Below, one piece after another: positions 7,001 to 63,143 of a DNA stretch of 64,000 nucleotides; positions within the stretch are counted from its first letter, which is position 1; each line of letters starts with the position of its first letter. The notes under the pieces were generated by a model, which did not search any database, was not told the origin of the DNA, and worked only from the letters and a program-made list of their open reading frames with translations. The stretch lies in assembly GCF_017377395.1 (NCBI RefSeq), contig NZ_CP061800.1, positions 4,981,633 to 5,045,632 of the forward strand. Reading direction: 5' to 3'. Source of the stretch: Desulfonema magnum (GTDB lineage: Bacteria > Desulfobacterota > Desulfobacteria > Desulfobacterales > 4be13). The translations under genes and the position numbers were made by a program.

Positions 7001-9283
7001 CCGGAAGTCAGTAAAGAATATCCTGACCCGGGTATTTACAGCGTTGTTCTCACCGTCAATGATGACAGCATCGCTGAAAATGCCAGATCACAGGATAAGA
7101 TGCTTATTCATATAAACCATTCTCCCGAAGCCAGCACCGGTAAAAATATTGTCACCTGTGACCGAACCATTCATTTTGACGGGTATAATTCCGCGGATGC
7201 GGACGGAGATCCACTGAATTATTCATGGGACTTTGGCGACGGCACACCGCATCAGTCAGGCGGCAGAGTGATTCATACTTATAAAGAAAGCGGAACCTAT
7301 CCTGTTATCCTGACGGTTGACGACGGCAGGAACTTGGAGAACTCAAGGAATGTGGCTGCTTTTACCGTGAGCATAAACCAGGCGCCTGTCGCGGACGCGG
7401 GCGAAGATCAGATGGTTTGCGGGGGGGATGTGGTTCTTTTCAGCGGGGGACGCTCATATGATCCCGAGGGAGGGTTGTTGAAATATCACTGGGATTTTGA
7501 TGACAACACCACCGCGGAAGGGCTGAATCCGACAAAGGTGTTTAAAAAAGGCGGAACCTATCAGGTGACACTGACCATTGAAGATGATTCTGGTTTGGAA
7601 TGCAACCGTTCCTCGGATCAGATGGTTGTCCGGGTGACAGACGCGCCCATAGCTGATGCTGGTAAGGATTTGACGGTCTGTGCGAATACTGAAGTTCATT
7701 TTGACGGCTCAGGCTCATGGGATACAGACGGAGAGGTCAACAGCTTTCTGTGGGATTTTGGCGACGGTGCGACTGGCGGCGGTTCCAAACCTTCTCATAT
7801 CTATACAGAACCGGGGATTTATCCGGTCAAACTTTCCATCACCGGCGATTCCACAGGGCTTTGCGATAATACAGACACTGCCGAGATCACCGTTACCGTT
7901 CATGAATCGCCGCATGCCGTCATCAGCGCACCTTTTCTTGTTCCTGTTCACAAATCCGTTGAATTTGACGGTTCGGCATCTGAGAGTAATGAAGGAAAAA
8001 TTGTGTCATGGAAATGGGATTTCGGAGACGGACATTCAGGAAAAAATGTAAAAACAGCGCATTCCTATCATAAGCCAGGGCGATATCCGGTCAGATTGAC
8101 AATCACAACAGATCCTGAAAATATATGCAATACAGTTACGGCTCACCATATGATTGTTGTCAACGGGCCGCCTGTTGCAAACGCGGACGCTGATAACTTT
8201 GTCGGTGTTAACGAGGTTGTTGTATTTAACGGATCCGGTTCATCTGACAAAGACGGAGCCATTATCAGATATGAATGGGATTTCGGAGACGGAGAAACCG
8301 CGGACGGCGTGGAAGTTCGTCATCGCTATCAGGCAGGGGGACGCTATCTGGTCACGCTTAAAGTTACAGATGACACGGATGCTGAAAATAACTGGGATAC
8401 GGATAACATCCGGGTTGCTGTCAATAACACGCCTCAGGCGGTTATTGAAACTGGAAACTCGGAACTGGAAACTGGAAATTCGGATTTTTGGGCATGCCCT
8501 GGTGAAAAAATTCGATTCAGCGCTGAAAATTCATCTGATCCTGACGGAGATATTTTGAAAAGCAAAACCAGTCATTATTATTGGGATTTCGGGGACGGTC
8601 AAAATGCCGAGGGTCTCAGGGTTTCTCATACATATGAGACTTGGGGAAAATATCTTGTGACGTTAATTGCTGATGATGGCTCAGGGGTCGGCAACAGCCA
8701 AGATGAGGCCAATGAGCGGATTATTGTTAACCACCCGCCTATGGCCGACGGGGGGCCGGACCGGATTGTCTGTCCCAGAGAAACAATCTCTTTTGATGGT
8801 TCGAATTCCACCGATCCTGATAGTAAATCACTTACATATCATTGGGATTTTGGGGACGGAAACACGGCTCAGGGGGCTGAAGCCACGCATGTTTTTGAGA
8901 AACCTGGCTCATACAAGGCATATCTGACGGTTACAGATGACTCCGGAACAGCTTGCGGAACAAGCAAGGATATGATACTTGTCAAAGTGAATGCGGCACC
9001 TGTAGCCGATGCCGGTCCTGATAAGGAGGCTTTTGTCGGCGGCGCTCACGACGCTGTTCTTTTTGACGCAACCGGGTCCTACGATCCTGATGGCGATCCT
9101 CTGGCCTGTTACTGGGATTTTGGCGATGGTACGCATGAAACCGGGGTCAGAGTGTTCCATACATATGTTCAGCCAGGTACTTACACCGTCCGTGTGCGGG
9201 TGAGGGACAGTGTGAAAACCAGTTGCAGTGAAGTCCGGGATCAGCTGACCGTAACTGTCAGGCAAAGGGAAAATGTTCAATAG
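4082..9283 (+). CDS. Giant secreted protein with 16 PKD domains
   Basis: A 1733-residue protein with a clear signal peptide (MNKLPGFLLWMLIIITTPGAFAQ), so it is exported. Residues about 25-285 form a non-PKD N-terminal region of unknown fold. From about 287 to the end there are 16 consecutive PKD (polycystic-kidney-disease, Ig-like beta sandwich) repeats of about 90 residues, each with a DGS(A/G)S.DPDG motif and a WDFGDG core. PKD arrays usually serve as extracellular spacers or adhesion surfaces; no enzyme domain, sorting signal or C-terminal anchor is visible. Start supported by AAAGGA eight bases before ATG. Domains 4, 5 and 14 carry LETGN-type heptamer insertions after the first strand, and domain 8 carries an SQFPILNSQL insertion at the same place. 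It is flanked by direct repeats at 3474 and 9291. Confidence 0.9.
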   Translation: MNKLPGFLLWMLIIITTPGAFAQENILLITYGADSRTIEGDNDHQQEIIIRIPETVKDNLYVRIFDPDVGGVLDDKFGFHKGFDTKTRFTLYGAGQIKSEIFAADKTKDNSWHTFARFSPKEGDLKDGHYFFKLRIEGLEGDDGNVFDVAVSEFPDKNRKPGGAEIINYEPTIRLPKEGVSAEMRFFVPEDASELTVRGFDMAEAKVRVTTPFRSGLRVRASGQDEWADSKIELTEIENQRMFGLTFTGGREIPNDATFTISTQNGENLPVQLPIPVPQKNHRPVPHIRVTYLSDCYSVRFDASGSRDKDGDRLSYSWDFGDGTTDKGVRVTHRYDEQSAFEVTLVVTDDSGQVGNAASETAKIYINQPPRAKAGSPQAVSGQINAAPEQEITFDGSASEDPDGEIRYYFWMFGDSKTRFGKKVTHAFKKPGNYKVSLRVGDKSQRPCNKDTDTLNVLINARPFVNIGKNRIGAVGEILHFDAEKVYDSDGEIIKYLWEFGDDTQKEGKTVTHTYAEPGNYTVILTVEDDSGTLNSVASDKIVMVTNDPPVAEFEIRNLKLETRNRGTAGEIMTFDASTSFDRDGKIISYSWDFGDNNTSVGKKVTHAYQQPGTYHVTLTVEDDSKTSSSEHSETLPVIINDPPVAKFETRNSELETGNRGAAGEVMTFDASESFDRDGELIAYLWDFGDNSEGTGVTVTHAYQQPGTYHVRLTVEDDSETSSSQHSHSLILIVNHPPKADAGPDQLVSASAVQFDATGSQDPDGEIISYHWEFGDGSAAPDAGPSPVHVYGTPGDYTVRLTVSDDSETLSSQNSDHMKVIVNHKPIADAGPDQTGVPGQPVHFDGSASFDPDGHIRGFQWNFGNGSVSEISKKPMISHTYTTPGIYNAQLTVQDNTGHKEATDTDDLVIVINAPPVAKISSQFPILNSQLTAAPGQRITFDGKRSYDPDGEVAEYRWDFSSSDAELIETLMGPEVSKEYPDPGIYSVVLTVNDDSIAENARSQDKMLIHINHSPEASTGKNIVTCDRTIHFDGYNSADADGDPLNYSWDFGDGTPHQSGGRVIHTYKESGTYPVILTVDDGRNLENSRNVAAFTVSINQAPVADAGEDQMVCGGDVVLFSGGRSYDPEGGLLKYHWDFDDNTTAEGLNPTKVFKKGGTYQVTLTIEDDSGLECNRSSDQMVVRVTDAPIADAGKDLTVCANTEVHFDGSGSWDTDGEVNSFLWDFGDGATGGGSKPSHIYTEPGIYPVKLSITGDSTGLCDNTDTAEITVTVHESPHAVISAPFLVPVHKSVEFDGSASESNEGKIVSWKWDFGDGHSGKNVKTAHSYHKPGRYPVRLTITTDPENICNTVTAHHMIVVNGPPVANADADNFVGVNEVVVFNGSGSSDKDGAIIRYEWDFGDGETADGVEVRHRYQAGGRYLVTLKVTDDTDAENNWDTDNIRVAVNNTPQAVIETGNSELETGNSDFWACPGEKIRFSAENSSDPDGDILKSKTSHYYWDFGDGQNAEGLRVSHTYETWGKYLVTLIADDGSGVGNSQDEANERIIVNHPPMADGGPDRIVCPRETISFDGSNSTDPDSKSLTYHWDFGDGNTAQGAEATHVFEKPGSYKAYLTVTDDSGTACGTSKDMILVKVNAAPVADAGPDKEAFVGGAHDAVLFDATGSYDPDGDPLACYWDFGDGTHETGVRVFHTYVQPGTYTVRVRVRDSVKTSCSEVRDQLTVTVRQRENVQ

Positions 9284-16247: not shown

Positions 16248-16535
16248 TATATGAAAGTGTCAGGTGTTAAGTGTTAAGTGTTAAGTATCAGGAAAAACTA
16301 CAAAACTTTCATCGTTCGTTGTGACCGGCAGTTCATGGGAGTTTATATGAAAGTGTTAGGTGTCAGGTGTTAGGTGTTAGGAAAAACTACAAAAATTTCA
16401 TTGTTCGTTGTGACCGGCAGATCATGCCCGTTTATGTGAAAGTGTCTGAAGTGACTAAAGTTAATAAAGTGACTGAAGTTAAAAGTTCTTTCATGTTTCG
16501 TTGTGAGCGGACCGCTCATGGCCGTTTATAATAAA
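16248..16535. repeat. GTGTTAG heptamer element, three tandem copies
   Basis: Same unit as at 135-433, again three copies. The third has its heptamers degraded to GTGACTAAAGTTAATAAAG but keeps the CTTTCATGTTTCGTTGTGAG box. Confidence 0.85.
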
Positions 16536-18016: not shown

Positions 18017-19191
18017 ATATCATTTATCTGGACAACAACGCGACCACACAGGTTGCCCCGGAGGTATTGGAGGAGATGCTTCCTTATTTTAGTGAATTTT
18101 ATGGCAATCCTTCAAGTATGTATAATTTTGCCGGACAGACCGCACACAAGCTGGAAGAGGCACGCTCAAAAGTGGCGTCGCTTCTGGGGGCCTCGTCTGA
18201 GGAGATCGTTTTTACCAGCTGCGGCACGGAAAGCGACAACACCGCAATTCAGACAGCAATTTTGTCAAATCCTGATAAGAAGCACATCATTACCACCAGG
18301 GTCGAGCATCCCGCGGTAAAGAATATGGGAGAATACCTTTCGGGAAAAGGATACCGGGTGACATCTGTGCCAGTTGACAGCAAGGGCCGCCTTGATCTTG
18401 ATTATCTTTATAAAAACCTTAGTGATGACACCGCTATTGTCAGTGTCATGTGGGCAAACAATGAAACCGGCGTGATTTTTCCCATAGAAGAGATTGCTCA
18501 GGCTGTAAAGGAAAAGGGAATTGTTTTTCACACGGACGCGGTTCAGGCCGTGGGAAAGATCCCCATTGATGTCAGCAGTACCAGTGTTGATATGCTTTCA
18601 ATTTCCGGCCATAAGCTTCATGGTCCCAAAGGGATTGGCGTGCTTTATGTGCGCAAAGGCACTAAATTTTTTCCGTTCATGATTGGCGGACATCAGGAAG
18701 GCGGACGAAGAGGCGGGACAGAAAATGTCGCTTCCATCGCGGGCCTTGGAAAAGCATGCGAACTGGCTGCTGCTCATATGGAAGAGGAAAATACCCGGGT
18801 CAAGGCGTTAAGAGACAGGCTTGAAAGCGAGCTGTTGAAACGTATCCCAAATGCCAAGATCAACGGAGACACAGATAACCGCCTCCCCAATACCACAAGC
18901 ATCGGCTTTGACTATGTGGAAGGCGAATCCATCCTGCTGATGATGAATGAACTGGGGATTTGCGCCTCGTCAGGCTCGGCATGTACGTCCGGCTCGCTTG
19001 AACCGTCCCATGTTCTGCGTGCAATGGGCGTACCTTTTACCGCTGCCCACGGCTCAATACGTTTCAGCCTGAGTGTTTACAATACAGAAAAAGACATTGA
19101 TGTTGTCATTGAAAAACTTCCGCCCATTATCCAACGGCTGCGGGAAATGTCTCCTTTCTGTGAAGCCGGAAACTTGAAACTTGAAACTTGA
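18013..19191 (+). CDS. nifS: Cysteine desulfurase NifS
   Basis: 392 residues, PLP-dependent. It opens MNIIYLDNNATTQVAPEVLE; the PLP lysine is in SISGHKLHGPKG and the catalytic cysteine in SSGSACTSGSLEPSHVLRAM, the NifS/IscS type (group I). It takes sulfur from cysteine and passes it to NifU. Starts inside the last codons of nifU. The C-terminus is odd: after the natural end near REMSPFC come EAGNLKLET, encoded by the first heptamers of the following repeat tract; the same peptide occurs in the kinase linker at 59.6 kb. Together with cysE and cysK downstream it forms a cysteine supply and use cluster. Confidence 0.95.
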   Translation: MNIIYLDNNATTQVAPEVLEEMLPYFSEFYGNPSSMYNFAGQTAHKLEEARSKVASLLGASSEEIVFTSCGTESDNTAIQTAILSNPDKKHIITTRVEHPAVKNMGEYLSGKGYRVTSVPVDSKGRLDLDYLYKNLSDDTAIVSVMWANNETGVIFPIEEIAQAVKEKGIVFHTDAVQAVGKIPIDVSSTSVDMLSISGHKLHGPKGIGVLYVRKGTKFFPFMIGGHQEGGRRGGTENVASIAGLGKACELAAAHMEEENTRVKALRDRLESELLKRIPNAKINGDTDNRLPNTTSIGFDYVEGESILLMMNELGICASSGSACTSGSLEPSHVLRAMGVPFTAAHGSIRFSLSVYNTEKDIDVVIEKLPPIIQRLREMSPFCEAGNLKLET

Positions 19192-19356
19192 AACTTGGAA
19201 CTTGGAACTTGAGACTGGAAACTTGGAACTTGGAACTTGGAACTTGGAATTTGGAATTTGGAACTTGGAACTGAAAACCGGAAGCTGAAAGATTGAAAGC
19301 TTTCGAATTTCCAGTTTCCAGTTTCAAGTTTCCAGTTTCAAATTTCAAGTTTCAAA
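19160..19356. repeat. Heptamer tract, two opposed arrays between nifS and cysE
   Basis: About 16 CTTGGAA/CTTGAAA heptamers run up to a small GAAAGCTTTC palindrome near 19300, followed by about seven TTTCCAG/TTTCAAG heptamers in the opposite sense, so the whole can fold back on itself. It overlaps the 3' end of nifS and separates it from cysE. Confidence 0.88.
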
Positions 19357-21847: not shown

Positions 21848-21969
21848 TTTGTATAAAAGTGTTAGGTGTTAGGTGTTAAGTGTTAGGTGTCAGGTGTTAG
21901 GTGTTAAGTGTTAAGTGTTAGGAAAAATAATGGAATTTTCATGTTTCATTGTGATCAGCAGGTCATGCC
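21848..21969. repeat. GTGTTAG heptamer element abutting tsaC
   Basis: About ten GTGTTAG/GTGTTAA/GTGTCAG heptamers, then the CATGTTTCATTGTGATCAGC box. The box end (GGTCATGCCC) contains the tsaC stop codon, so the element is directly joined to the gene. Confidence 0.85.
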
Positions 21970-23132: not shown

Positions 23133-23330
23133 GTAGGTGGTTAGGTGTTTAGGTGGTTAGGTGTTAGGTGTTAGGTGTTAGGTGTCAGGTGTTAGGTGTC
23201 AGGTGTTAGGTGTCAGGTGTTAGGTGTTAGGTGTTAAGTGTTAAGTGTTAGGTGTTAAGTGTTAGGTGATCAGGCGTCAGAGTTGGAGAATCATGTCCTT
23301 TCTTAACACCTAACACCTAACACCTTAGTA
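23133..23330. repeat. Long GTGTTAG heptamer tract with inverted tail
   Basis: Roughly 20 heptamers of TTAGGTG/TCAGGTG type, ending with CTTAACACCTAACACCTAAC, the opposite orientation, so a hairpin is possible. Its right end overlaps the last codons of ddl and provides the ddl stop. Confidence 0.9.
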
Positions 23331-24284
23331 ACACCTTGTTTTCTGTTTATGCGCTTCAATCCCCAGTTCAATTAATTTGTCAAGCAGTTGACTGAAAGAA
23401 ATTCCTGCGGCCTTTGCTGCCCGGGGAAAAAGACTGGTCTGGGTCATGCCGGGAATGGTATTGGTCTCAAGAACATATATTTCCTGATTCCTAAGGATCA
23501 TATCTGTCCGGCTATACCCCTTGCAGCAAAGGGCCTGATGCGCCATTTTGGCATAAGTCCGGGCTTTTTCAGCTAATGACTCATCAATACGTGCCGGGCA
23601 TATTTCCTGTGTCAGCCCTGCCACATATTTTGCTTCGTAATCAAAAAACTCATGAGCTTCATCAGGGATGATCTCGATAAGCGGGAGCGCCTGAAGATCA
23701 TCATTATTGCCGATAATCCCGCAAGTCAGTTCAGTACCTTTAATATAGGCTTCGATCAGAACTGTATCATCATAAGCAAAGGCTTTATCCACAGCTTCTT
23801 TTAAAAATTCTTCAGATCTGACAATGGACATTCCAATGCTTGAACCGCCGGCCGCGGGTTTGATCACCAACGGCAGGCCCAGATGTTCTGTATATTCTTC
23901 GGGGTCAGCAGGTTTGTCATACCTGACAGAAGCAATGTAAGGCGGCACAGGAAGCCCTGCTTTTTCATAGCATTCTTTTGAAACCAGTTTGTTCATGGCA
24001 ATGGCACTGCCAAGAACACCCGTGCCCTGGTAGGGAATATCAAGAAGATCAAGCATTCCCTGGATGGTTCCGTCTTCACCATAAGGGCCGTGAAGGATGA
24101 TCAGCGCGACATCAATCTCAGCCGCATCTGATACCAGGCGGCCAAGGTCTGTCTCAGGATCATATTGGATAATATTGTATTTTTCTTTGTCCAACGCTTC
24201 AAAGACCTGGCTACCGCTTTTCAGGGAAACCTCCCGCTCTGAAGATATGCCGCCGGAAAGAAGTGCAACAGTAAGTTTTTTCAT
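23325..24284 (-). CDS. ddl: D-alanine--D-alanine ligase
   Basis: About 319 residues from the ATG at 24282-24284 (MKKLTVALLSGG), preferred over the upstream start that would overlap the previous gene more. ATP-grasp features: LHGPYGEDGTIQGMLDLL, KPAAGGSSIGMS, and the Mg-binding LETNTIPGMTQTSLFP. Makes D-Ala-D-Ala for peptidoglycan. It follows the SHOCT membrane gene by a few bases. The last codons (TRCY then TAA) are made of GTGTTAC/TAAGGTG heptamer sequence, so the natural C-terminus has probably been replaced by a repeat-derived end. Confidence 0.92.
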   Translation of the reverse strand: MKKLTVALLSGGISSEREVSLKSGSQVFEALDKEKYNIIQYDPETDLGRLVSDAAEIDVALIILHGPYGEDGTIQGMLDLLDIPYQGTGVLGSAIAMNKLVSKECYEKAGLPVPPYIASVRYDKPADPEEYTEHLGLPLVIKPAAGGSSIGMSIVRSEEFLKEAVDKAFAYDDTVLIEAYIKGTELTCGIIGNNDDLQALPLIEIIPDEAHEFFDYEAKYVAGLTQEICPARIDESLAEKARTYAKMAHQALCCKGYSRTDMILRNQEIYVLETNTIPGMTQTSLFPRAAKAAGISFSQLLDKLIELGIEAHKQKTRCY

Positions 24285-24288
24285 GATG

Positions 24289-24786
24289 TTACGCTCTGTT
24301 ATTAAAGAGTTCCTGTTTGGTTCGATTGTATTCGTCAAGGGTGATCAGATTATCTTCAAGCAGACGGGCAAGCTCTTTAAGTTCTCTGATGCGGACCGTG
24401 GTCGGATCTTCCAACCGGGGGATATGTTCAAATGTGTTCCCAATACCCAATGCAGGGGTCGTATTATCCGGACTGCCTATTTTGACAGATGCAAAGCCTC
24501 CCAACAGACTTATTTCAACTGGCCTGCCGCTGAAAGTGGAAGAATTCAGCGTGTCCTTCAATGACTGTCCTTGTAATTTCATGCGTCTGTAAAAAAAATA
24601 TCCGGAAAAAATAACCAGGGCTAAACTGCCTGCAAGTATCCATGCCATGTATTCGGTGACACCACGAAAAAAAAGGACAAGGCATCCCACCCCTGCCATC
24701 AGAAGAACATGAAGGATAAGAATGGAATATGCCATTAAAACGCCTTTAAAAAGGCCGGTTTCCTCTTTTTTGTTCTTAAAAGCCAT
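24289..24786 (-). CDS. Small membrane protein with C-terminal SHOCT-like motif
   Basis: 165 residues. Two transmembrane helices near the N-terminus (GVLMAYSILILHVLLMAGVG and MAWILAGSLALVIFSGYFFY), then a cytoplasmic tail ending in RIRELKELARLLEDNLITLD followed by EYNRTKQELF, the short SHOCT pattern that often mediates oligomerisation. Function unknown. It is immediately upstream of ddl and probably in the same transcript. Confidence 0.7.
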   Translation of the reverse strand: MAFKNKKEETGLFKGVLMAYSILILHVLLMAGVGCLVLFFRGVTEYMAWILAGSLALVIFSGYFFYRRMKLQGQSLKDTLNSSTFSGRPVEISLLGGFASVKIGSPDNTTPALGIGNTFEHIPRLEDPTTVRIRELKELARLLEDNLITLDEYNRTKQELFNNRA

Positions 24787-24839: not shown

Positions 24840-25235
24840 TTATTTCTTTTTATCAGCGGAATTCTTTGATTTGACACGACCTGTCAGTTTTGTCATATAT
24901 TTTTGCGGAACTTCAAAAACAATCGAAGTGTCTCGTATGGAATTCAGCTTCATAATAAGGAAATTCAGTTTCTTCATGGTCTTGTATTTTTCAGTTGTAT
25001 CTTCCATACCTGACAGAATATCTTCTGTCTGTCTGATCTCTTTTTTCAGTTCAATTTCCGGGGGAACACAATCAGCGTTTTTCAATATCTTATAAGCAAG
25101 ACGCAGATCCTCCGGAATATGGCCGTCATTCTCAAGCACAATGGGTTCGCCTGACCCGGGAAGATTTTCAAACTCCCCTTTTTTCTGAGCCTTTTTTATC
25201 CGCTCTTCCACAATTTTTTCAAAGCCTGTAAACAT
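24840..25235 (-). CDS. DUF1992 (DnaJ homologue subfamily C member 28-like) protein
   Basis: 131 residues. The conserved core is present: VEERIKKAQKKGEFENLPGS followed by GEPI and DLRLAYKILKNADCVPPEIE. The family occurs alone in bacteria and fused to a J domain in animals; its role is not established. No membrane segment. It sits about 50 bp upstream of the SHOCT membrane gene, on the same strand. Confidence 0.8.
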   Translation of the reverse strand: MFTGFEKIVEERIKKAQKKGEFENLPGSGEPIVLENDGHIPEDLRLAYKILKNADCVPPEIELKKEIRQTEDILSGMEDTTEKYKTMKKLNFLIMKLNSIRDTSIVFEVPQKYMTKLTGRVKSKNSADKKK

Positions 25236-25673: not shown

Positions 25674-28600
25674 TTAACCCTGAGAAGGATCAGAACCGGC
25701 AACTTCAACAGTAAATTCATCTAAATTATCCGGAAGGTTAGAAAATACCATCATAAACGGAAGTGTCTTTCCGGGATTAACCTTTTCATTTGATCCGTTG
25801 TCACCGGAACGGTTTGAAAGCCGTTTTTTTATCGCTTCCGGATCCAGGTTGGAAAGGTCTTTGTCTGATAAAATATTACCACAATAAAATGTTTCCTGTT
25901 TTGCAAGGGTTTTATTTTTTGTATAAAGAATTCCTCTCATTTTTATAAAATTACGGGCATTGGAATATTCATTTTTAATCTTTCCGGTTATCACAAGAAG
26001 GGTTCCGGCTTTAGGGTTATTTACCACAAATTTGTTTTTTATGGAGCTTTCTATGGCTATTATCTCACCAACATTCTGAACTTCAGGCTCTGGCTCCTTT
26101 TCAAGATCAAGATAAGGGATTTTTGCCACCATACCTTTGACCGTATCCAAAAATGTGTCTGTGCCCATGGTGTAAAGTCCGTAACCGGCAGCTCCGAAAA
26201 TCATCAGTCCGCCCAGCAAAACAAGAACAGGCATCTTCCTTTTTTTTTCGACAGGTTCAGCGTCTTCAGCGTCGGTCTCCTGTTTTTCCCCAGACTCGGG
26301 TTCCAAATCCATATCCAGGTCGAACACTTCCGCAGAAGGTATCGGCGGAGGCTTTTTTTCATCATATTCATCTTCTTCAAAGCCGCCTTCCGGGATTCCC
26401 ATATCAAAGACCTGTGTCAGACTTCCGGCCTCCTCATCATCCTTTTCCTCGTCCTGTCCGGCACCATCCTTAAAAATCTCTTGCTCATCTTTTTCGAAGT
26501 CAAAAGATTCGCCCTCTGAGTCATCTTCAGATGTATATTGGGATTCATCTTTATCTTCAATATCAAAGTTGAAATCAAAGTCACCTGAGTCATCTGTTAT
26601 TTTTTTTTCGGTTTCAGATTCGGAGTCCGCATCCAGATCAAATCCAAAATTTTCTTCATCTCTTTTGTCTTCTTCCGAAAAGTCAGATTCCAAATCTATG
26701 TCAAAATCAAAGTCCTCTTTTTCGTTATCTTGGTCAGGTTCAGCATCCATGTCTAAATCCAAATCAAGATCAAGATCAAAGATTTCTGTTCGTTCCTCAT
26801 CCTTTTTAGTCTTGGCTTTAATTTCGGGTTCCAGTTCCAGTTCCAGCTCAAATTCCTCTGCCTCTTCCTTATTATCTTCGGAATCAGAGTCTAAATCGAA
26901 ATCCAGCTCAAAATTGTCTTCTTTAGCCTCTTCTTTGGAATCAGGCTCAAAATCTATATCAAGCTCAAAATCTTCCGTGTCTTCCCCGCTTTCAGATTCC
27001 AGATCAAAATCAAGCTCAAAATATTCTTCCTCTTTATCCTCTTCCTTTTTTGCCTCGGACTCGGACTCCAAATCAAGGTCAAGCTCGAATTCTTCTTCCT
27101 TTTTTGCCTCGGACTCAGACTCCAAATCAAAATCAAGCTCAAAATCCTCCTCTTTTGCCCCGGACTCGGACTCCAAATCAAGATCAAGCTCGAATTCTTC
27201 CTCCTTTTTTGCCTCCGACTCAGATTCCAAATCAAGATCAAGCTCGAATTCTTCTTCTTTTTCCCCCGCATGAGGCTCCAAATCAAGATCAAGCTCGAAT
27301 TCTTCCTCCTTTTTTGCCTCCGACTCAGATTCCAAATCAAGATCAAGCTCGAATTCTTCTTCTTTTTCCCCCGCATGAGGCTCCAAATCAAGCTCAAGCT
27401 CTAATTCTTCCTCTTTTGCCCCGGACTCAGATTCCAAATCAAGATCAAGCTCGAATTCTTCTTCCTTTTTTGCCTCGGACTCGGACTCCAGATCAAAATC
27501 AAGCTCGAATTCTTCTTCTTTTTCCCCCGCATGAGGCTCCAAATTTACCCCGGACTCAGGCTCCAGATCAAGATCAAGCTCGAATTCTTCTTCCTTTTTT
27601 GCCTCGGACTCGGACTCCAGATCAAGGTCAAGCTCGAATTCTTCTTCCTTTTTTGCCTCGGACTCGGACTCCAAATCAAGGTCAAGCTCGAATTCTTCTT
27701 CTTTTTCCCCCGCATGAGGCTCCAAATCAAGGTCAAGCTCTAATTCTTCCTCTTTTGCCCCGGACTCGGACTCCAGATCAAGATCAAGCTCGAATTCTTC
27801 TTCCTTTTTTGCCTCGGACTCGGACTCCAAATCAAGATCAAGCTCCTCTTCTTCAGACTTCAAATCAAGATCAAGCTCGAATTCTTCTTCCTTTTTTGCC
27901 TCCGACTCAGGCTCCAAATCAAGATCAAGCTCGAATTCTTCTTCTTTTTCCCCCGCATGAGGCTCCAAATCAAGGTCAAGCTCTAATTCTTCCTCTTTTG
28001 CCCCGGACTCGGACTCCAAATCAAGGTCAAGATCGAATTCTTCTTCCTCTTTTGCCCCGGACTCAGGCTCCAGATCAAGATCAAGCTCGAATTCTTCTTC
28101 TTTTTTTGATTCGGACTCAGACTCCAAATCAAGATCAAGCTCCTCTTCTTCAGACTTCAAATCAAGATCAAGCTCGAATTCTTCTTCCTTTTTTGCCTCC
28201 GACTCAGGCTCCAAATCAAGATCAAGCTCGAATTCTTCTTCTTTTTCCCCCGCATGAGGCTCCAAATCAAGCTCAAGCTCGAATTTTTCTTCTTTTTCCC
28301 CCGCATGAGGCTCCAAATCAAGGTCAAGTTCAAAATTTTCCTCTTTTGCTTCGGCATGAGGTTCCAAGTTAAGATCAAGCTCAAAAGCCTCTTCACCTTT
28401 TGCTTCGGATGGAGTTTCCAAATTCAAATCCAGATCAAGTTCGAATTTTTCTTCTTCTTTTATTTCGTTAGCGTTTTTTTTCACTGATGATTCTCCATCC
28501 AATTCAAGCAACTTATCTATTTCAGAAACTAAGTCTGTATTTTCCGGGTGTTCAGGTTTGATTCTTTCCTCTGAATTTAAATTTATTGATAAGTCGTCAG

Positions 28601-31600
28601 ATTCTTTCTCAGATTCTGTTTCAGGTGATAGCTCTCCGTCCATTTCGAGCATTTCATCAAGGGCGTTATACATATTTTCAGCGTTAAACTCCATCGTCTT
28701 AAATTCGTCCGGATCTTCCGCGTCTGTATGATGCTCTGCATTATTTTGATCATCATCCTCATCATCCTCATCGTCATCTATAAAATCTTCATTTATTTCG
28801 AGCATTTGATCAATATCAGACAAATCAAGCTCATCTACTTCTTTAAGTCCGACCCTTGCTCCTAAATCTTCTGGAATACTTTCAACTGATTCTGAAGACA
28901 AATCCAAATCAAGTGATAAATCCTCGTATTCATCACCTTTAACATCTTGTTTTAACAAATCATTATTTTCATCAGCATCCGGCTCGAGGGCAATGTCCAG
29001 GTCCAGAGAAATATCTTCCGGCTCAATTTTCCGGTCTTTGCTTTCCGCCTTGTCTTCGGCATCCGGCTCGAGGGCAATGTCCAGGTCCAGAGAAATATCT
29101 TCCGGCTCAATTTTCCGGTCTTTGCTTTCCGCCTTGTCTTCGGCATCCGGCTCAAAGTCAATATCCAGGTCCAGAGAAATATCCTCCGGCTCAATTTTCC
29201 GGTCTTTGCTCTCCGCATCGTCTTCGGCATCCGGCTCAAAGTCAATGTCAATGTCCATGTCCAGGGAAATATCTTCCGGTTCAATTAGCCGGATGTCCTT
29301 ATCTGTATCCTCTTCAGCATCCGATTCGAGGGAAATGTCCAGGTCCGGGGAAATATCTTCCGGCTCAATTTTCCGGTCTTTGCTCTCCGCTTCGCCTTCG
29401 GCATCCGGTTCAAAGTCTATGTCCAAGTCCAGGGAGATATCCTCCGGCTCAATTTTCCGGTCTTTGCTCTCCGCTTCGTCTTCGGCATCCGGTTCAAAGT
29501 CTATGTCCAAGTCCAGGGAGATATCCTCCGGCTCAATTTTCCGGTCTTTGCTCTCCGCATCAGCTTCGGCATCCGGCTCGAGGGCAATGTCCAGGTCCAG
29601 AGAAATATCCTCCGGCTCAATTTTCCGGTCTTTGCTTTCCGCATCAGCTTCGGCATCCGGCTCAGAGTCAATGTCCAGGTCCAGAGAAATATCTTCGGGT
29701 TCAATTTTCCGGTCTTTGCTTTCCGCCTTGTCTTCGGCATCCGGCTCAGAGTCAATGTCCAGGTCCAGAGAAATATCTTCGGGTTCAATTTTCCGGTCTT
29801 TGCTTTCCGCCTTGTCTTCGGCATCCGGCTCAGAGTCAATGTCCAGGTCCAGAGAAATATCTTCCGGCTCAATTTTCCGGTCTTTGCTTTCCGCATCGTC
29901 TTCGGCATCCGGCTCGAGGGCAATGTCCAGGTCCAGAGAAATATCCTCCGGCTCAATTTTCCGGTCTTTGATCTCCGCATCGTCTTCGGCATCCGGCTCA
30001 GAGTCAATGTCCAGGTCCAGAGAAATATCTTCGGGTTCAATTTTCCGGTCTTTGCTTTCCGCATCGTCTTCGGCATCCGGCTCGAGGGCAATATCCAGGT
30101 CCAGAGAAATATTTTCGGGTTCAATTTTTCGGTCTTTGCTCTCCGCATTGTCTTCGGCATCCGGTTCAGAGTCAATGTCCAGGTCCAGAGAAATATCTTC
30201 GGGTTCAATTTTCCGGTCTTTGCTTTCCGCATCAGCTTCGGCATCCGGCTCAAAGTCAATGTCCAGGTCCAGAGAAATATCTTCCGGCTCAATTTTCCGG
30301 TCTTTGATCTCCGCATCGTCTTCGGCATCCGGCTCAAAGTCAATGTCCAGGTCCAGAGAAATATCTTCCGGCTCAATTTTCCGGTCTTTGCTCTCCGCTT
30401 CGTCTTCGGCATCCGGTTCAAAGTCAATGTCCAGGTCCAGGGAAATATCTTCCGGCTCAATTTTCCGGTCTTTGTTTTCCGCCTCAGCTTCGGCATCCGG
30501 TTCGAGAGCAATGTCCAGGTCCAGGGAAATATCTTCCGGTTCTATTTTCCGGTCTTTGTTTTCCGCCTCAGCTTCGGCATCCGGTTCGAGAGCAATGTCC
30601 AGGTCCGGGGAAATATCTTCCGGCTCAATTTTCCGGTCTTTGCTCTCCGCTTCGCCTTCGGCATCCGGTTCAAAGTCTATGTCCAAGTCCAGGGAGATAT
30701 CCTCCGGCTCAATTTTCCGGTCTTTGCTCTCCGCTTCGTCTTCGGCATCCGGTTCAAAGTCTATGTCCAGGTCCAGAGAAATATCCTCCGGCTCAATTTT
30801 CCGGTCTTTGCTTTCCTCCTTGTCTTCGGCATCCGGCTCAAAGTCAATGTCCAGGTCCAGGGAAATATCTTCCGGTTCAATTTTCCGGTCTTTGCTTTCC
30901 GCATCGTCTTCGGCATCCGGATCGAGGGCAATGTCCAGGTCCAGAGAAATATCTTCCGGCTCAATTTTCCGGTCTTTGCTCTCCGCTTCGCCTTCGGCAT
31001 CCGGTTCAAAGTCTATGTCCAGGTCCAGGGAAATATCCTCCGGCTCAATTTTCCGGTCTTTGATCTCCGTATCGTCTTCGGCATCCGGCTCGAGGGCAAT
31101 ATCCAGGTCCAGAGAAATATTTTCGGGTTCAATTTTTCGGTCTTTGCTTTCCGCATCAGCTTCGGCATCCGGCTCAGAGTCAATGTCCAGGTCCAGAGAA
31201 ATATCTTCGGGTTCAATTTTCCGGTCTTTGCTTTCCGCATCGTCTTCGGCATCCGGTTCAAAGTCTATGTCCAAGTCCAGGGAGATATCCTCCGGCTCAA
31301 TTTTCCGGTCTTTGCTCTCCGCTTCGTCTTCGGCATCCGGTTCAAAGTCTATGTCCAGGTCCAGAGAAATATCCTCCGGCTCAATTTTCCGGTCTTTGCT
31401 TTCCTCCTTGTCTTCGGCATCCGGCTCAAAGTCAATGTCCAGGTCCAGGGAAATATCTTCCGGTTCAATTTTCCGGTCTTTGCTTTCCGCATCGTCTTCG
31501 GCATCCGGATCGAGGGCAATGTCCAGGTCCAGAGAAATATCCTCCGGCTCAATTTTCCGGTCTTCCTCATCTTTAGTAGAATCTGAGTCAGGAAATAAAA

Positions 31601-32681
31601 CATCAGACGCTTTTTCCGTTTCAGATGATTTATCCACGTCAGACAATCTGAGGCTTTTCCTTTTTTCAGATTCATCTGTATCGGACAAAACAAGCCTTTC
31701 AGGATCGTCCGAATCTGAAGCCGCTTCAAATTCTCCCTCGGAAAAAGATTTTTCTGGCATTTCAAATTCGTCCGCGTCGAAAAAATCAGGAGTTTCAGGT
31801 TTGCCAGTCGGGATTCCCTCAGATTCAAAGGCGTCATCCATATCGGACGACAGATGAAGGTTTTTTATTGTCTCAGAATCGTCTGCATCAGAGATATCAG
31901 AGCCTTTCAGTTCATTTGGCTCTGAAACCGCCTTTGTTTCAAGTTTCGCCTCAGCATCTGAGTCAGGAGATAAAAGCCTTGATTCTTTTTCTGTCACACC
32001 TTCCGGTACCAACTCTGATATTTTATTCGTGTCGGATCCGCCAAGTTTTTCCGATTTATCAAATTGTACATCCGCATTTGGTTTTACATCCAAATCCAAA
32101 TCAAATGATAAATCCTCAACGTCTTTCGTTTTTATGTCCTCAGTCGTGTCTTTTTCGATCTGCGGAGCCGTGCCTGAATCCGAGTCCGCCTTTTTCTTCA
32201 GATATGACGGACTTTCTGTCTCAGACCGTTCATCCCTGTCTGAATCAGGCTCGGATTGCCCCGTATCTTTTTCAATTTCTGGCTTTACGTCTAAATCCAA
32301 ATCAAAAGAGAGATCATCTGGCTCTTTTTCCAAAAGATCCAGTTCATCATCTTCTATTTCGAGCAAATCTTCAATGCCTGATAAGTCAAATCCGCCGGTT
32401 TGTCCGGGGTCAAAATTCGACATTGTTTCATAACGCTCTTTTTTTTGCTGTTTTGCCTGTTCTTCTTCTGCCTTGCTGATTCTAAGCGCCTGAGTTTTCT
32501 TTGCTTTAAAATCATCTCTGACTCTGAGAGCAGTTGATTTGTCAGATTTATATTTGAATTCAGTAGGATATACTATAAAAATGTTATTGCATTTTGAGCA
32601 TTGTACCCTGGATCCTGTCTGTTTCAAAAGACTTTCATCCAAATTGAAACTGGTATTACATTTTTTACACGTAATAATCAT
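25674..32681 (-). CDS. Giant acidic-repeat protein with MJ0042 zinc ribbon, one TM helix and DUF3426
   Basis: 2335 residues. N-terminus is an MJ0042-type zinc ribbon (C5, C8, C28, C31). Residues about 370-1235 are 31 copies of a 28-residue unit with consensus DRKIEPEDISLDLDIDFEPD then AEDDAESK. Residues about 1410-1930 are a second array of 17-18-residue units (KKEEEFELDLDLESESEA). One transmembrane helix lies at about 2151-2170 (MPVLVLLGGLMIFGAAGYGL), followed by a DUF3426 domain (about 2195-2335) that should be outside the membrane. Zinc-ribbon/DUF3426 proteins are normally a few hundred residues long; the extra length is all acidic repeat. The strongly negative middle would be cytoplasmic. 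Function unknown. ATG at 32679-32681 has only a weak ribosome site. Confidence 0.85.
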   Translation of the reverse strand: MIITCKKCNTSFNLDESLLKQTGSRVQCSKCNNIFIVYPTEFKYKSDKSTALRVRDDFKAKKTQALRISKAEEEQAKQQKKERYETMSNFDPGQTGGFDLSGIEDLLEIEDDELDLLEKEPDDLSFDLDLDVKPEIEKDTGQSEPDSDRDERSETESPSYLKKKADSDSGTAPQIEKDTTEDIKTKDVEDLSFDLDLDVKPNADVQFDKSEKLGGSDTNKISELVPEGVTEKESRLLSPDSDAEAKLETKAVSEPNELKGSDISDADDSETIKNLHLSSDMDDAFESEGIPTGKPETPDFFDADEFEMPEKSFSEGEFEAASDSDDPERLVLSDTDESEKRKSLRLSDVDKSSETEKASDVLFPDSDSTKDEEDRKIEPEDISLDLDIALDPDAEDDAESKDRKIEPEDISLDLDIDFEPDAEDKEESKDRKIEPEDISLDLDIDFEPDAEDEAESKDRKIEPEDISLDLDIDFEPDAEDDAESKDRKIEPEDISLDLDIDSEPDAEADAESKDRKIEPENISLDLDIALEPDAEDDTEIKDRKIEPEDISLDLDIDFEPDAEGEAESKDRKIEPEDISLDLDIALDPDAEDDAESKDRKIEPEDISLDLDIDFEPDAEDKEESKDRKIEPEDISLDLDIDFEPDAEDEAESKDRKIEPEDISLDLDIDFEPDAEGEAESKDRKIEPEDISPDLDIALEPDAEAEAENKDRKIEPEDISLDLDIALEPDAEAEAENKDRKIEPEDISLDLDIDFEPDAEDEAESKDRKIEPEDISLDLDIDFEPDAEDDAEIKDRKIEPEDISLDLDIDFEPDAEADAESKDRKIEPEDISLDLDIDSEPDAEDNAESKDRKIEPENISLDLDIALEPDAEDDAESKDRKIEPEDISLDLDIDSEPDAEDDAEIKDRKIEPEDISLDLDIALEPDAEDDAESKDRKIEPEDISLDLDIDSEPDAEDKAESKDRKIEPEDISLDLDIDSEPDAEDKAESKDRKIEPEDISLDLDIDSEPDAEADAESKDRKIEPEDISLDLDIALEPDAEADAESKDRKIEPEDISLDLDIDFEPDAEDEAESKDRKIEPEDISLDLDIDFEPDAEGEAESKDRKIEPEDISPDLDISLESDAEEDTDKDIRLIEPEDISLDMDIDIDFEPDAEDDAESKDRKIEPEDISLDLDIDFEPDAEDKAESKDRKIEPEDISLDLDIALEPDAEDKAESKDRKIEPEDISLDLDIALEPDADENNDLLKQDVKGDEYEDLSLDLDLSSESVESIPEDLGARVGLKEVDELDLSDIDQMLEINEDFIDDDEDDEDDDQNNAEHHTDAEDPDEFKTMEFNAENMYNALDEMLEMDGELSPETESEKESDDLSINLNSEERIKPEHPENTDLVSEIDKLLELDGESSVKKNANEIKEEEKFELDLDLNLETPSEAKGEEAFELDLNLEPHAEAKEENFELDLDLEPHAGEKEEKFELELDLEPHAGEKEEEFELDLDLEPESEAKKEEEFELDLDLKSEEEELDLDLESESESKKEEEFELDLDLEPESGAKEEEEFDLDLDLESESGAKEEELELDLDLEPHAGEKEEEFELDLDLEPESEAKKEEEFELDLDLKSEEEELDLDLESESEAKKEEEFELDLDLESESGAKEEELELDLDLEPHAGEKEEEFELDLDLESESEAKKEEEFELDLDLESESEAKKEEEFELDLDLEPESGVNLEPHAGEKEEEFELDFDLESESEAKKEEEFELDLDLESESGAKEEELELELDLEPHAGEKEEEFELDLDLESESEAKKEEEFELDLDLEPHAGEKEEEFELDLDLESESEAKKEEEFELDLDLESESGAKEEDFELDFDLESESEAKKEEEFELDLDLESESEAKKEEDKEEEYFELDFDLESESGEDTEDFELDIDFEPDSKEEAKEDNFELDFDLDSDSEDNKEEAEEFELELELEPEIKAKTKKDEERTEIFDLDLDLDLDMDAEPDQDNEKEDFDFDIDLESDFSEEDKRDEENFGFDLDADSESETEKKITDDSGDFDFNFDIEDKDESQYTSEDDSEGESFDFEKDEQEIFKDGAGQDEEKDDEEAGSLTQVFDMGIPEGGFEEDEYDEKKPPPIPSAEVFDLDMDLEPESGEKQETDAEDAEPVEKKRKMPVLVLLGGLMIFGAAGYGLYTMGTDTFLDTVKGMVAKIPYLDLEKEPEPEVQNVGEIIAIESSIKNKFVVNNPKAGTLLVITGKIKNEYSNARNFIKMRGILYTKNKTLAKQETFYCGNILSDKDLSNLDPEAIKKRLSNRSGDNGSNEKVNPGKTLPFMMVFSNLPDNLDEFTVEVAGSDPSQG
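26880..28455. repeat. Tandem 51-54 bp coding repeats (FELDLDLESESEAKK)
   Basis: Second repeat array of the giant protein. Units alternate between EPHAGEKEEE and ESESEAKKEEE forms and are of slightly unequal length. Confidence 0.85.
28975..31568. repeat. Tandem 84 bp coding repeats, about 31 copies
   Basis: Each unit contains CTCAATTTTCCGGTCTTTG. Variant blocks recur in order (units 1-3 equal units 8-10; units 10-12 resemble 25-27), showing duplication of multi-unit blocks. Several other frames are also open through the array and are not taken as genes. Confidence 0.92.
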
Positions 32682-33283
32682 AATAGTTACCCAAATAATA
32701 AAATCTGATAGAAAAACTATCAGTCAGGTTTTGAAACCGGCATGACATTATCCGGTGGCTAACCGGTTCAGAATATTGAATGATCTGGCAATGTCAGCCT
32801 GTTCGGAGTACCCGCCACTCAGACGCTTAAAAAGATTCAATTGCCGGAACCTTGGCTGAAAACATACACAAAAAATCAACTTTAATCGGAATGGTAAGAG
32901 GTTACATAAGATCGGATGCAGATATTTTTTTGTATTGACAAGAACAAAGTCAGCTTTGATTTTCTGGCTCAGAACCAACAGACCTGACAGAATATCCGAA
33001 TGTTAACTCCCTGCCTGAAACTTTGGCAGAACACTGATTGGAAGTTATAAAAAATAAGTTACTTGTAAGTTTCAGAAAAATAACCTGATTTGCTACTGAC
33101 TGAAATTTTTTTTGTTTTGAACAACAGGAAGTCCCTGAAAAAATCAGTCCGCAACTGAACACACTTTTACAGACTGAAATACTATTCCAAATATATTATA
33201 TATAACATTAAGCTTTCTTAAAAAGCAACAAAAAAAAGCCTTGGCCCTGTCTGAAGAAAGGGATGGCTCTCGGAAACAAAGTT
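32682..33283. other. Intergenic, no feature recognised
   Basis: About 600 AT-rich bases upstream of the giant gene, no gene or clear repeat seen. A promoter for the giant gene is expected here but no convincing pair of boxes could be singled out. Confidence 0.35.
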
Positions 33284-33510
33284 TTCAATGTTAAGTATCA
33301 GATGCTAAGTATCAATACTTCGGACACTTTTTGTAACCTGTTGTTTTTATTAGGTCTGATGATTTTTATCCCGAAAATTAAAACCGTTTAATTTCAATAA
33401 GTTATTTTTTTCATCATTCTGATTTTCAAAAATTGTCCGAAGTATTGAAGTATTAAGTGTTATGAAAAATTATGATTTTTCATACTTCATTGTGAGCGAC
33501 AGGCCATGAA
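33284..33510. repeat. Heptamer-element relative with inverted arms
   Basis: AATACTTCGGACA (about 33313) and TGTCCGAAGTATT (about 33435) are inverses; both are flanked by AAGTATCA/AAGTATTAAGTG remnants. The right end carries TGAAAAATTATGATTTTTCA and the CATTGTGAGCGACAGGCCAT box of the GTGTTAG elements. Confidence 0.7.
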
Positions 33511-33529
33511 ATTGTTGTAAAACAACTCG

Positions 33530-33566
33530 TTATAAAATGTCATTCCTATGAAAGCAGGAATGACAT
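33530..33566. terminator. TGTCATTCCT palindrome, possible terminator
   Basis: AAAATGTCATTCCT and AGGAATGACATTTT form an almost perfect hairpin about 130 bp downstream of the DnaJ-like gene. It is the core of the CACTCGAT elements standing alone. Confidence 0.45.
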
Positions 33567-33695
33567 TTTGGGGAACTTCAAATAAAAACCATACGCGATT
33601 CAGATCGCCATATCTGCCCTGTATTTTGAATATGTTATTTTTTAAAAAATCCCTTACGACGGACAGGAGTTCAGACCGGGACAAGTTTGCTTTTT

Positions 33696-34613
33696 TCAGA
33701 TCCCTGTCTCTGCCAGATTTTCTATCAGTTTTTTTTGTTTTTTACTGAGATTTGTCGGCATATTGAAATATATGGAAACATAAAGATCGCCTTTGTTATT
33801 CCCTTTCATATGCGGAAGGCCGTAACCGGAAAAACGCATTTTGGTTTTATGTTTTGTACCCGGAGGTATTTTTACACTTAACTCCTTACCTTCAATCGTC
33901 GGAACAAGGATATTCGTACCGAGGACAGCCTCTGTCAGTTTTATTTCCTGATTTATATGCAGGTCATATCCTTCCGGCTTGTAAACCGGATCATGAAGCA
34001 CTTTGGATTGGATGAAAAGATCTCCCGGAGGTCCCCCGTAAGGGCTGGGTTCGCCTTTTCCGGCAAGCCTCAGTTTCTTACCTGTAACCATGCCTTTTGG
34101 TATCTTTACTGTCAGATTTTCAGACCGCCCCTTATGTTGAAAATTTATGGTCTTACTGGTTCCGGTTGCCACTTCATATAAGGTCAGAGGCAGTTCATAT
34201 ACCAGATCAGACCCTTTGGTCTGCTGGGGCTGCTGTCTTGAATAGGGGTTAAATGACCCGTCACTGCCAAATGAAAACCGGGTTCCGCCCCTTTTTCCGC
34301 AAGCCTTTCCAAAAATATTCCCTCCGAATCCCAGATCTTCAAAAATACTTGAAAAATCAAAATTTTTAAAGATATCTTCCTGCGAATAACGCTGCTGGAA
34401 TCCGGTTGACCCGAATGTGTCGTACTGCTGACGTTTTTCTTTGTCGCTCAGAACAGCATATGCCTCACTGACCTGCTTGAATTTTTCTTCAGCACTTTTA
34501 TCCCCTTTGGTATGGTCAGGATGATATTTCATGGCAAGCTTCCGATACGCTTTTTTAATGTCTTCATCAGAAGCGTTTTTACTGATACCAAGTATTTTAT
34601 AATAGTCGGACAT
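33696..34613 (-). CDS. cbpA: DnaJ-like co-chaperone, CbpA type
   Basis: 305 residues. J domain at 1-70 with the HPD motif ([17 protein letters not shown]), a G/F-rich linker (about 75-135), then two beta-sandwich C-terminal domains ([18 protein letters not shown] and [20 protein letters not shown]) and no cysteine zinc finger, which separates it from DnaJ proper. Stimulates Hsp70 ATPase and holds unfolded substrates. The C-terminal dimerisation helix is short. Start preceded by AGGGAA. Single-gene unit. Confidence 0.88.
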
Positions 34614-42747: not shown

Positions 42748-43583
42748 TCCGGAGTGCAAAAATTGCATTTTTGCATTTTTATCCGGAGTGCAAAAATTGT
42801 ATTTTTGCATTTTTATCCGGAGTGCAAAAATTGCATCTTTGCATTTTTATCCGGAGTGCAAAAATTGTATTTTTGCATTTTTATCCGGAGTGCAAAAATT
42901 GTATTTTTGCATTTTTATCCGGAGTGCAAAAATTGCATTTTTGCATTTTTATCCGGAGTGCAAAAATTGTATTTTTGCATTTTTGCATTTTTATCCGGAG
43001 TGCAAAAATTGTATTTTTGCATTTTTATCCGGAGTGCAAAAATTGCATTTTTGCACTTTTATCCGGAGTGCAAAAATTGTATTTTTGCATTTTTATCCGG
43101 AGTGCAAAAATTGTATTTTTGCATTTTTATCCGGAGTGCAAAAATTGCATTTTTGCATTTTTATCCGGAGTGCAAAAATTGCATTTTTGCATTTTTATCC
43201 GGAGTGCAAAAATTGCATTTTTGCATTTTTATCCGGAGTGCAAAAATTGCATTTTTGCATTTTTATCCGGAGTGCAAAAATTGCATTTTTGCATTTTTAT
43301 CCGGAGTGCAAAAATTGTATTTTTGCATTTTTATCCGGAGTGCAAAAATTGCATCTTTGCATTTTTATCCGGAGTGCAAAAATTGCATCTTTGCATTTTT
43401 ATCCGGAGTGCAAAAATTGCATTTTTGCATTTTTATCCGGAGTGCAAAAATTGCATTTTTGCATTTTTATCCGGAGTGCAAAAATTGCATTTTTGCATTT
43501 TTATCCGGAGTGCAAAAATTGCATTTTTGCACTCCGGATTCGCTGCCCGCAAAGATGCAAAAATTGCATCTTTGCACTCCGGA
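42748..43583. repeat. 34 bp minisatellite, 23 copies
   Basis: Unit TCCGGAGTGCAAAAATTGCA followed by TTTTTGCATTTTTA. 23 starts of TCCGGA are spaced by exactly 34 bp except one 42 bp step at 42953 (an extra GCATTTTT). Each unit has the hairpin TGCAAAAAT-TGC-ATTTTTGCA. The last unit completes a full palindrome (TCCGGAGTGCAAAAA with TTTTTGCACTCCGGA), followed by a variant inverted copy. All three forward frames are open throughout because 34 is 1 modulo 3 and no stop arises. No spacers, so not CRISPR. Confidence 0.95.
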
Positions 43584-63094: not shown

Positions 63095-63143
63095 GGGTGT
63101 TAGGTGTTAGGTGTTAGGTGTTAGGTGTCAGGTGTTAAGTGTT
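63095..63143. repeat. GTGTTAG heptamer tract in the NUDIX leader
   Basis: Six or seven GTGTTAG/GTGTCAG heptamers beginning seven bases upstream of the NUDIX start, without the conserved 3' box. Confidence 0.85.

Follow-up and report, generated by a model that had tools for sequence, protein, structure and literature searches.

A zinc-ribbon/DUF3426 membrane protein of Desulfonema magnum with an extremely elongated acidic repeat linker, a candidate localisation scaffold

Introduction

In Caulobacter crescentus, ZitP combines a cytoplasmic N-terminal zinc ribbon (zinc_ribbon_5), one transmembrane (TM) helix and a C-terminal periplasmic DUF3426 domain; the ribbon binds PopZ via W35 together with R24 and R27, and the periplasmic DUF3426 domain recruits CpaM for pilus assembly (PMC5182065, PMC5182063). 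In HubP, the cytoplasmic region is largely unstructured and carries imperfect acidic repeats that vary in number and length among related species, and FimV of P. putida has an Ig-like periplasmic domain (PMC12918733). Here we describe a gene of Desulfonema magnum whose product resembles ZitP at its ends and HubP in between. It lies in a stretch of 64,000 nucleotides (contig NZ_CP061800.1, positions 4,981,633 to 5,045,632) that is referred to below as the window. Desulfonema species are filamentous and glide, as Myxococcus does. To our knowledge, scaffolds for polarity and gliding in deltaproteobacteria are poorly known outside Myxococcus, and we know of no literature on the machinery behind gliding or multicellularity in Desulfonema.

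Architecture of the D. magnum protein

The gene (25674..32681, minus strand, as are all parts of it given below) codes for 2335 amino acids from an ATG start, and Pfam and hydropathy analyses confirmed the MJ0042 ribbon, the single membrane helix and the DUF3426 domain of the original prediction. The MJ0042-type ribbon (residues 1-37, 32571..32681) has the pattern CXXC-x19-CXXC, belongs to the Pfam families Zn_ribbon_4/5 (PF13717 at residues 1-35: E 4.4e-13, 49.4 bits at a cut-off of 30.3) and matches the solved ribbons 2nb9 (ZitP-like), which we take to be the ribbon of ZitP itself, and 7zok (AgmX/GltJ). Its F35 and basic patch are conserved features: K20, S24, K25, R27 and F35 are kept in about 88-96% of 99 orthologue ribbons, from which D. 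magnum departs with R25 and Q27. At the other end, a single TM helix is predicted at about residues 2151-2170 (26172..26231) from hydropathy, with a low-confidence helix in the AlphaFold2 model. A cytoplasmic N-terminus is favoured because the helix is preceded by KKRK and a signal peptide is absent. The DUF3426 domain (PF11906, residues 2213-2327, 25701..26045; 31.8 bits at a cut-off of 27.7) is predicted as a periplasmic beta-sandwich, with pLDDT values mostly of 92-98 (AlphaFold2). A structural search with this model returned generic Ig-like sandwiches only (best matches: VIA Z 8.4, a GH2 sandwich domain; Foldseek E 5.5e-3), so that no function follows from the fold.

Ribbon and TM helix are separated by a linker of about 2100 amino acids, 52% of them charged, with a net charge per residue of -0.32. 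Two tandem arrays dominate it. Array 1 (residues 377-1246, 28944..31553) consists of 31 units of 28 amino acids (84 bp; unit IEPEDISLDLDIDFEPDAEDDAESKDRK), spaced exactly 28 residues apart with one exception of 30; at the DNA level, TRF placed the array at 28975-31564 (84-bp period, 30.8 copies, score 3717). It is followed by an inter-array island (residues 1247-1412, 28446..28943) in which DLS-type motifs accompany the conserved stretch DEFKTMEFNAENMYNALDEML. Array 2 (residues 1413-1960, 26802..28445) is less regular, with about 30 units of 11-25 amino acids around an FELDLDLE core, most cores lying 17-19 residues apart; for it, TRF gave a complex pattern with a period of 51-54 bp at about 27040-28382. 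A distal acidic region (residues 1961-2144, 26250..26801), in which the islands RTEIFDL and VFDMGIP are conserved, leads up to the membrane. The original prediction had put the repeats at about 1900 residues; the tandem arrays together account for about 1420, and the remainder, though acidic, is not arranged in tandem.

The insert was expected to be highly acidic and presumably cytoplasmic. With a net charge of -658 and a pI of 4.05 the protein is indeed strongly polyanionic, its acidic part is on what should be the cytoplasmic side, and in charge-hydropathy terms the linker lies well beyond the boundary to disorder, which suggests that it is largely disordered. Cores of the LDLD type occur 119 times in the linker, compared with 3.9 +/- 2.0 in shuffled linkers. 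All repeats share this core and the three motifs named in the original prediction are present, but an origin of the arrays as recent DNA copies of one another did not hold up: the core reads CTG GAC CTG GAC ATT in array 1 and CTT GAT CTT GAT TTG in array 2 (TRF consensus), and as these codons differ throughout, the arrays grew from different seeds. No second gene with such repeats was found when the D. magnum genome was searched with the array-1 unit. An AlphaFold model of residues 1150-1600 alone places a strand at many LDLD cores; at a pLDDT of 47 it is too poor for a repeat solenoid to be claimed, and this low value is in keeping with a disordered linker.

Further open reading frames lie over the arrays at 28993-31857, 27050-28372 and 26569-27273 on the plus strand and at 29501-30511 on the minus strand. 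All four arise as by-products of a repeat unit that is free of stops, and the plus-strand frames (954, 440 and 234 amino acids) were rejected as genes, being shadows of the repeat.

Comparison with ZitP, HubP/FimV and GltJ/AgmX

The D. magnum protein shares with ZitP the N-terminal CXXC-x19-CXXC ribbon, the one TM helix and the C-terminal DUF3426 domain. It differs in size, ZitP having about 245 amino acids and a short linker, and in the PopZ-binding residues W35, R24 and R27, which correspond to F35, S24 and Q27 in D. magnum; most of the 99 orthologues have F35, S24, K25 and R27. In addition, PopZ (PF10691) was not found in the genomes of D. magnum (G000), D. ishimotonii (G167), Desulfococcus multivorans (G013) and G118, a single closed contig that probably represents D. 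limicola, whereas the Caulobacter control was positive. We therefore do not regard the protein as a ZitP orthologue, and the client of ZitP is not transferable.

With HubP and FimV it has in common a single TM helix and a long acidic cytoplasmic repeat region that is largely unstructured, as predicted here. Those proteins, on the other hand, carry periplasmic LysM and a C-terminal FimV TPR domain in the reverse domain order, and neither LysM nor TPR was matched in the D. magnum protein (Pfam, E 0.01), which is why we rejected its assignment to HubP/FimV and consider the resemblance an analogy, not homology. Elsewhere in the genome, a search for FimV_core (TIGR03505), run with no positive control, gave no match. 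GltJ/AgmX of Myxococcus xanthus likewise has this kind of zinc ribbon at its N-terminus (7zok, E 0.046), but its GYF and TonB-type C-terminal domains are absent from the D. magnum protein (Pfam), which has DUF3426 instead.

Gene neighbourhood

The gene lies in a conserved block, all on the minus strand in the window. Upstream is a J-protein gene (DnaJ + DnaJ_C, CbpA-like; 33696..34613), and downstream follow genes for a DJC28_CD protein (24840..25235), a SHOCT protein (24289-24786) and a D-Ala-D-Ala ligase (Ddl; 23325-24338), all identified by Pfam and synteny. This matches the order DnaJ, zinc-ribbon/DUF3426 gene, DJC28, SHOCT, Ddl, PurE and Sua5 seen in the Desulfobacterales. By a hand count from the synteny tables, the J-protein is directly upstream at 35 of the 37 ribbon-bearing loci with room for it, and DJC28, SHOCT, Ddl, PurE and Sua5 are found downstream at many loci, including those of G118 and D. 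ishimotonii. Since long and short forms share this gene order, the long genes are orthologous to the short ones. The gap between the J-protein gene and the giant gene (32682-33695) measures 1014 bp and recurs in relatives with 185-830 nt; no known RNA (Rfam) and no convincing ORF was detected in it, and scans for promoters and terminators came out at chance level.

Length and content of the linker among orthologues

We listed 231 frames with DUF3426 from the Desulfobacterales, weaker matches lying outside this list; the lengths given take in a few codons ahead of the start, and a frame that runs into a contig end, as in G001, G004 and G078, is counted at its cut length. The median is 611 codons. 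Only three frames exceed 1200, those of D. magnum (2349), D. ishimotonii Tokyo 01 (1804; the protein has 1801 amino acids in this PacBio RS II assembly) and G118 (1594), and the next-longest frame seen has 1190 (G021). The relatives of the D. magnum protein typically have about 250-1,200 residues, the form of D. multivorans (DSM 2059) having 946. In HSG8 (G002), a member of D. magnum's family, a frameshift in array 2 interrupts a 1363-codon frame that starts before the ribbon, and a 598-codon frame overlapping it reaches the C-terminus; with the frameshift left unmended, the two cover about 1880 codons between their outer stops. Lengths thus vary considerably from homologue to homologue, and the middle is repetitive in several of them, in contrast to the similar lengths and non-repetitive middles that would have spoken against the original prediction.

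Elsewhere in the phylum, in orders other than the Desulfobacterales, the majority of frames have about 240-500 amino acids, in line with the view that the two ends make up a normal small membrane protein. The further proposal that acidic repeats were inserted into such a protein in the D. magnum lineage is contradicted by the orthologues. Of 99 distinct complete ones, 97 already have a linker of more than 50 amino acids; linkers range from 28 to 980 amino acids, nearly all those of the Desulfobacterales being acidic and about 160-980 long, and only a few proteins (250-252 amino acids in total) are almost devoid of one. The 97 linkers contain 927 LDLD-type cores compared with 68.5 after shuffling, and in 78 orthologues the enrichment exceeds two standard deviations. 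A second motif, [DE][LIFM][SG].[ILMVF][DE].[MLAI][LIF] (e.g. DLSDIEKML), occurs 160 times compared with 0.7 after shuffling. Judged from these sequences, the acidic LDLD linker is a family trait of which only the length is unusual in D. magnum, and, as nearly all orthologues have such a linker, the D. magnum protein represents an extreme elongation of an existing one.

Repeat units and selection on their core

D. magnum and HSG8 share the order zinc ribbon, KKTQALRIS, GIE[DE]LLE, LSFDLD, array 1, DLDLSDID, DEFKTMEFNAENMYNALDEML, array 2, TEIFDL, VF[DE]MGIP and TM helix, so that both arrays sit at matching places in the two proteins, flanked by the same conserved islands. The inter-array island was also found in D. 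ishimotonii, G118 and G021, and the islands DEF..TLEFN..DMY..L, TE[IV]F and F[DN]MGI are common to the giants. The repeat units are not. The array-1 unit has 28 amino acids in D. magnum versus 34 in HSG8, and the array-2 unit 17-18 versus 19; G118 has 63-residue units with three cores each, followed by units of about 50 residues, and D. ishimotonii has units of 16/32. All of them centre on [LIF][DE]L[DE][LIM]. Each giant thus has its own unit built on the LDLD core, which indicates that the copying was lineage-specific.

Comparison of unit pairs within arrays gave overall pN/pS values of 0.25-0.47, with the core below the spacers in every array measured; unit pairs are not independent, and the values are descriptive ratios. 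For array 1 of D. magnum, where units were taken by position, pN/pS was 0.27 overall, 0.09 for the LDLDI core and 0.28 for the rest. The corresponding values were 0.47, 0.18 and 0.60 in G118, 0.25, 0.00 and 0.26 in D. ishimotonii, and 0.42, 0.31 and 0.65 in array 2 of HSG8, the core values of these three being biased low as the anchors include part of the core. Array 2 of D. magnum (0.25 and 0.34) counts least, its units being anchored on the core itself. The pattern indicates purifying selection on the repeat core, which could stem from composition or solubility instead of binding.

A tree of the C-terminal domain groups the families of D. magnum and D. multivorans with G021 and G030 (86/95), most other forks being open. 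As far as the genomes can be identified, elongation is common to all three cultured Desulfonema lineages, and a correlation between genus and length is suggestive, coming from three genomes of one lineage. A metagenome-assembled genome labelled Desulfonema limicola (L138) encodes a form of only 633 amino acids. We did not accept it as D. limicola, its C-terminal domain being only 41% identical to that of G118; if the label is right, the correlation is weaker.

Proposed function and alternative explanations

We consider the D. magnum protein an extreme member of the zinc-ribbon/TM/DUF3426 proteins of the Desulfobacterales that may act as a localisation scaffold, bitopic like ZitP and with an acidic multivalent linker resembling that of HubP. 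We assign this reading a probability of roughly 0.5; it is the combination of ZitP architecture and HubP-like acidic repeats that favours an envelope-anchored scaffold. The Ig-like DUF3426 domain would fix the protein to a periplasmic partner, and the TM helix would place the N-terminal part in the cytoplasm, where the zinc ribbon, with its conserved F35 and K20/K25/R27 patch, would recruit clients. The disordered acidic tether, with dozens of strand-like LDLD motifs and some DLSDIEKML-like ones, would help to recruit and concentrate them, the protein as a whole acting as a landmark or hub in the manner of ZitP or HubP. Tandem copying would provide more binding sites and a longer reach (a contour length of about 800 nm versus about 180 nm for the median relative). 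The few orthologues that are almost devoid of a linker speak against this scheme.

A less likely alternative is that the linker has to be acidic, disordered and rich in LDLD, but that its length drifts nearly neutrally through slippage or unequal exchange, with Desulfonema at the long end by chance. The wide range of orthologue linkers, each lineage with its own unit, would fit such drift, as would the weaker constraint on the spacers (pN/pS 0.26-0.65), and the grouping of the giants with G021 and G030 may reduce their elongation to one event. Yet the three longest of the 231 listed frames belong to D. magnum, D. ishimotonii and the probable D. limicola, while D. multivorans, from the same group, stays at 946 amino acids; furthermore, the core has been kept through 28-31 copies, of which some should have decayed if there were no selection. 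A more far-reaching version of the scaffold reading, in which Desulfonema turned a landmark protein by LDLD copying into a giant scaffold (31 + ~30 sites) that organises poles or septa or forms a condensate, its length tracking the multicellular body plan, is speculative and rather doubtful.

A chaperone function appears unlikely. The linker would then serve as a tether or client platform for the adjacent J-protein and Hsp70, its LDLD or acidic motifs acting as binding sites for the C-terminal domain of the J-protein, and the near-constant position of the CbpA-like J-protein upstream and the frequent presence of DJC28 downstream would be accounted for. However, Ddl, PurE and Sua5 belong to the same block, whose order may therefore reflect general synteny, and the intergenic gap is long.

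A role as a mere polyanion, a membrane-proximal buffer for divalent cations or basic proteins, is even less probable. The original prediction had considered a polyanionic brush for cations, basic proteins or scaffolds, and a net charge of about -660 over 2100 residues bears out the polyanion. But charge needs neither an LDLD core nor regular spacing or conserved islands, and selection is stronger on the core, including its L and I residues, than on the acidic spacers. Core selection, islands and second motif point to specific multivalent binding, which a generic brush misses. Finally, short-read assembly can go wrong on 84-bp units that are about 88% identical, and the short-read contigs of relatives break or frameshift within arrays (G001, G002, G004), but an artefact in repeat number is highly improbable here, given a single 8.03 Mb contig (8,027,777 bp) with an intact frame throughout the gene, only three identical unit pairs, which leaves the array resolvable, and the 1801-residue form in the PacBio assembly of D. 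ishimotonii.

With its ZitP architecture and HubP-like repeats, renewed per species around one selected motif, the preferred scaffold would be a concrete candidate for Desulfonema gliding or multicellularity. The orthologues also provide a natural series of tether lengths (from about 30 to 2100 amino acids) on the same ends, which makes it possible to test directly how a bacterial scaffold depends on the valency and length of its linker.

Other zinc-ribbon proteins and repeats

Six other good zinc-ribbon ORFs of the D. magnum genome have other partners, by eye e.g. kinase, cNMP-binding, MreB-like or TPR domains, and the LDLD linker is absent from all six. An ORF of this genome (L080 854-2273, near 779.7 kb; 473 amino acids) fuses, judged by eye, an MJ0042 ribbon to an MreB-like actin; actin-like Bbp has been reported in big bacteria including Desulfonema (PMC10580974), to which this fusion is perhaps relevant. 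Another (L078 670-3112, near 2.899 Mb; 814 amino acids) joins the ribbon, by eye, to a serine/threonine kinase and a C-terminal sensor-like region. Four loci (L038, L071, L037 and L044) code for short DUF3426 proteins that lack the MJ0042 ribbon, the first starting with a different cysteine-rich domain; these are probably paralogues or other families.

The window contains further repeats. A 34-bp unit (TCCGGAGTGCAAAAATTGCATTTTTGCATTTTTA) forms an array of 22.8 copies with 95% matches at 42748-43531, overlapped by three long plus-strand frames. Short arrays of 7-bp units (GTGTTAG/AAGTGTT; TTTCCAG/TTTCAAG/AACTTGG types) occur at 143-374, 1863-1966, 8447-8478, 16255-16445, 19171-19355, 21851-21922, 23134-23268 and 63096-63143, and a unit of 89 bp is found both at 133-353 and at 16264-16445.
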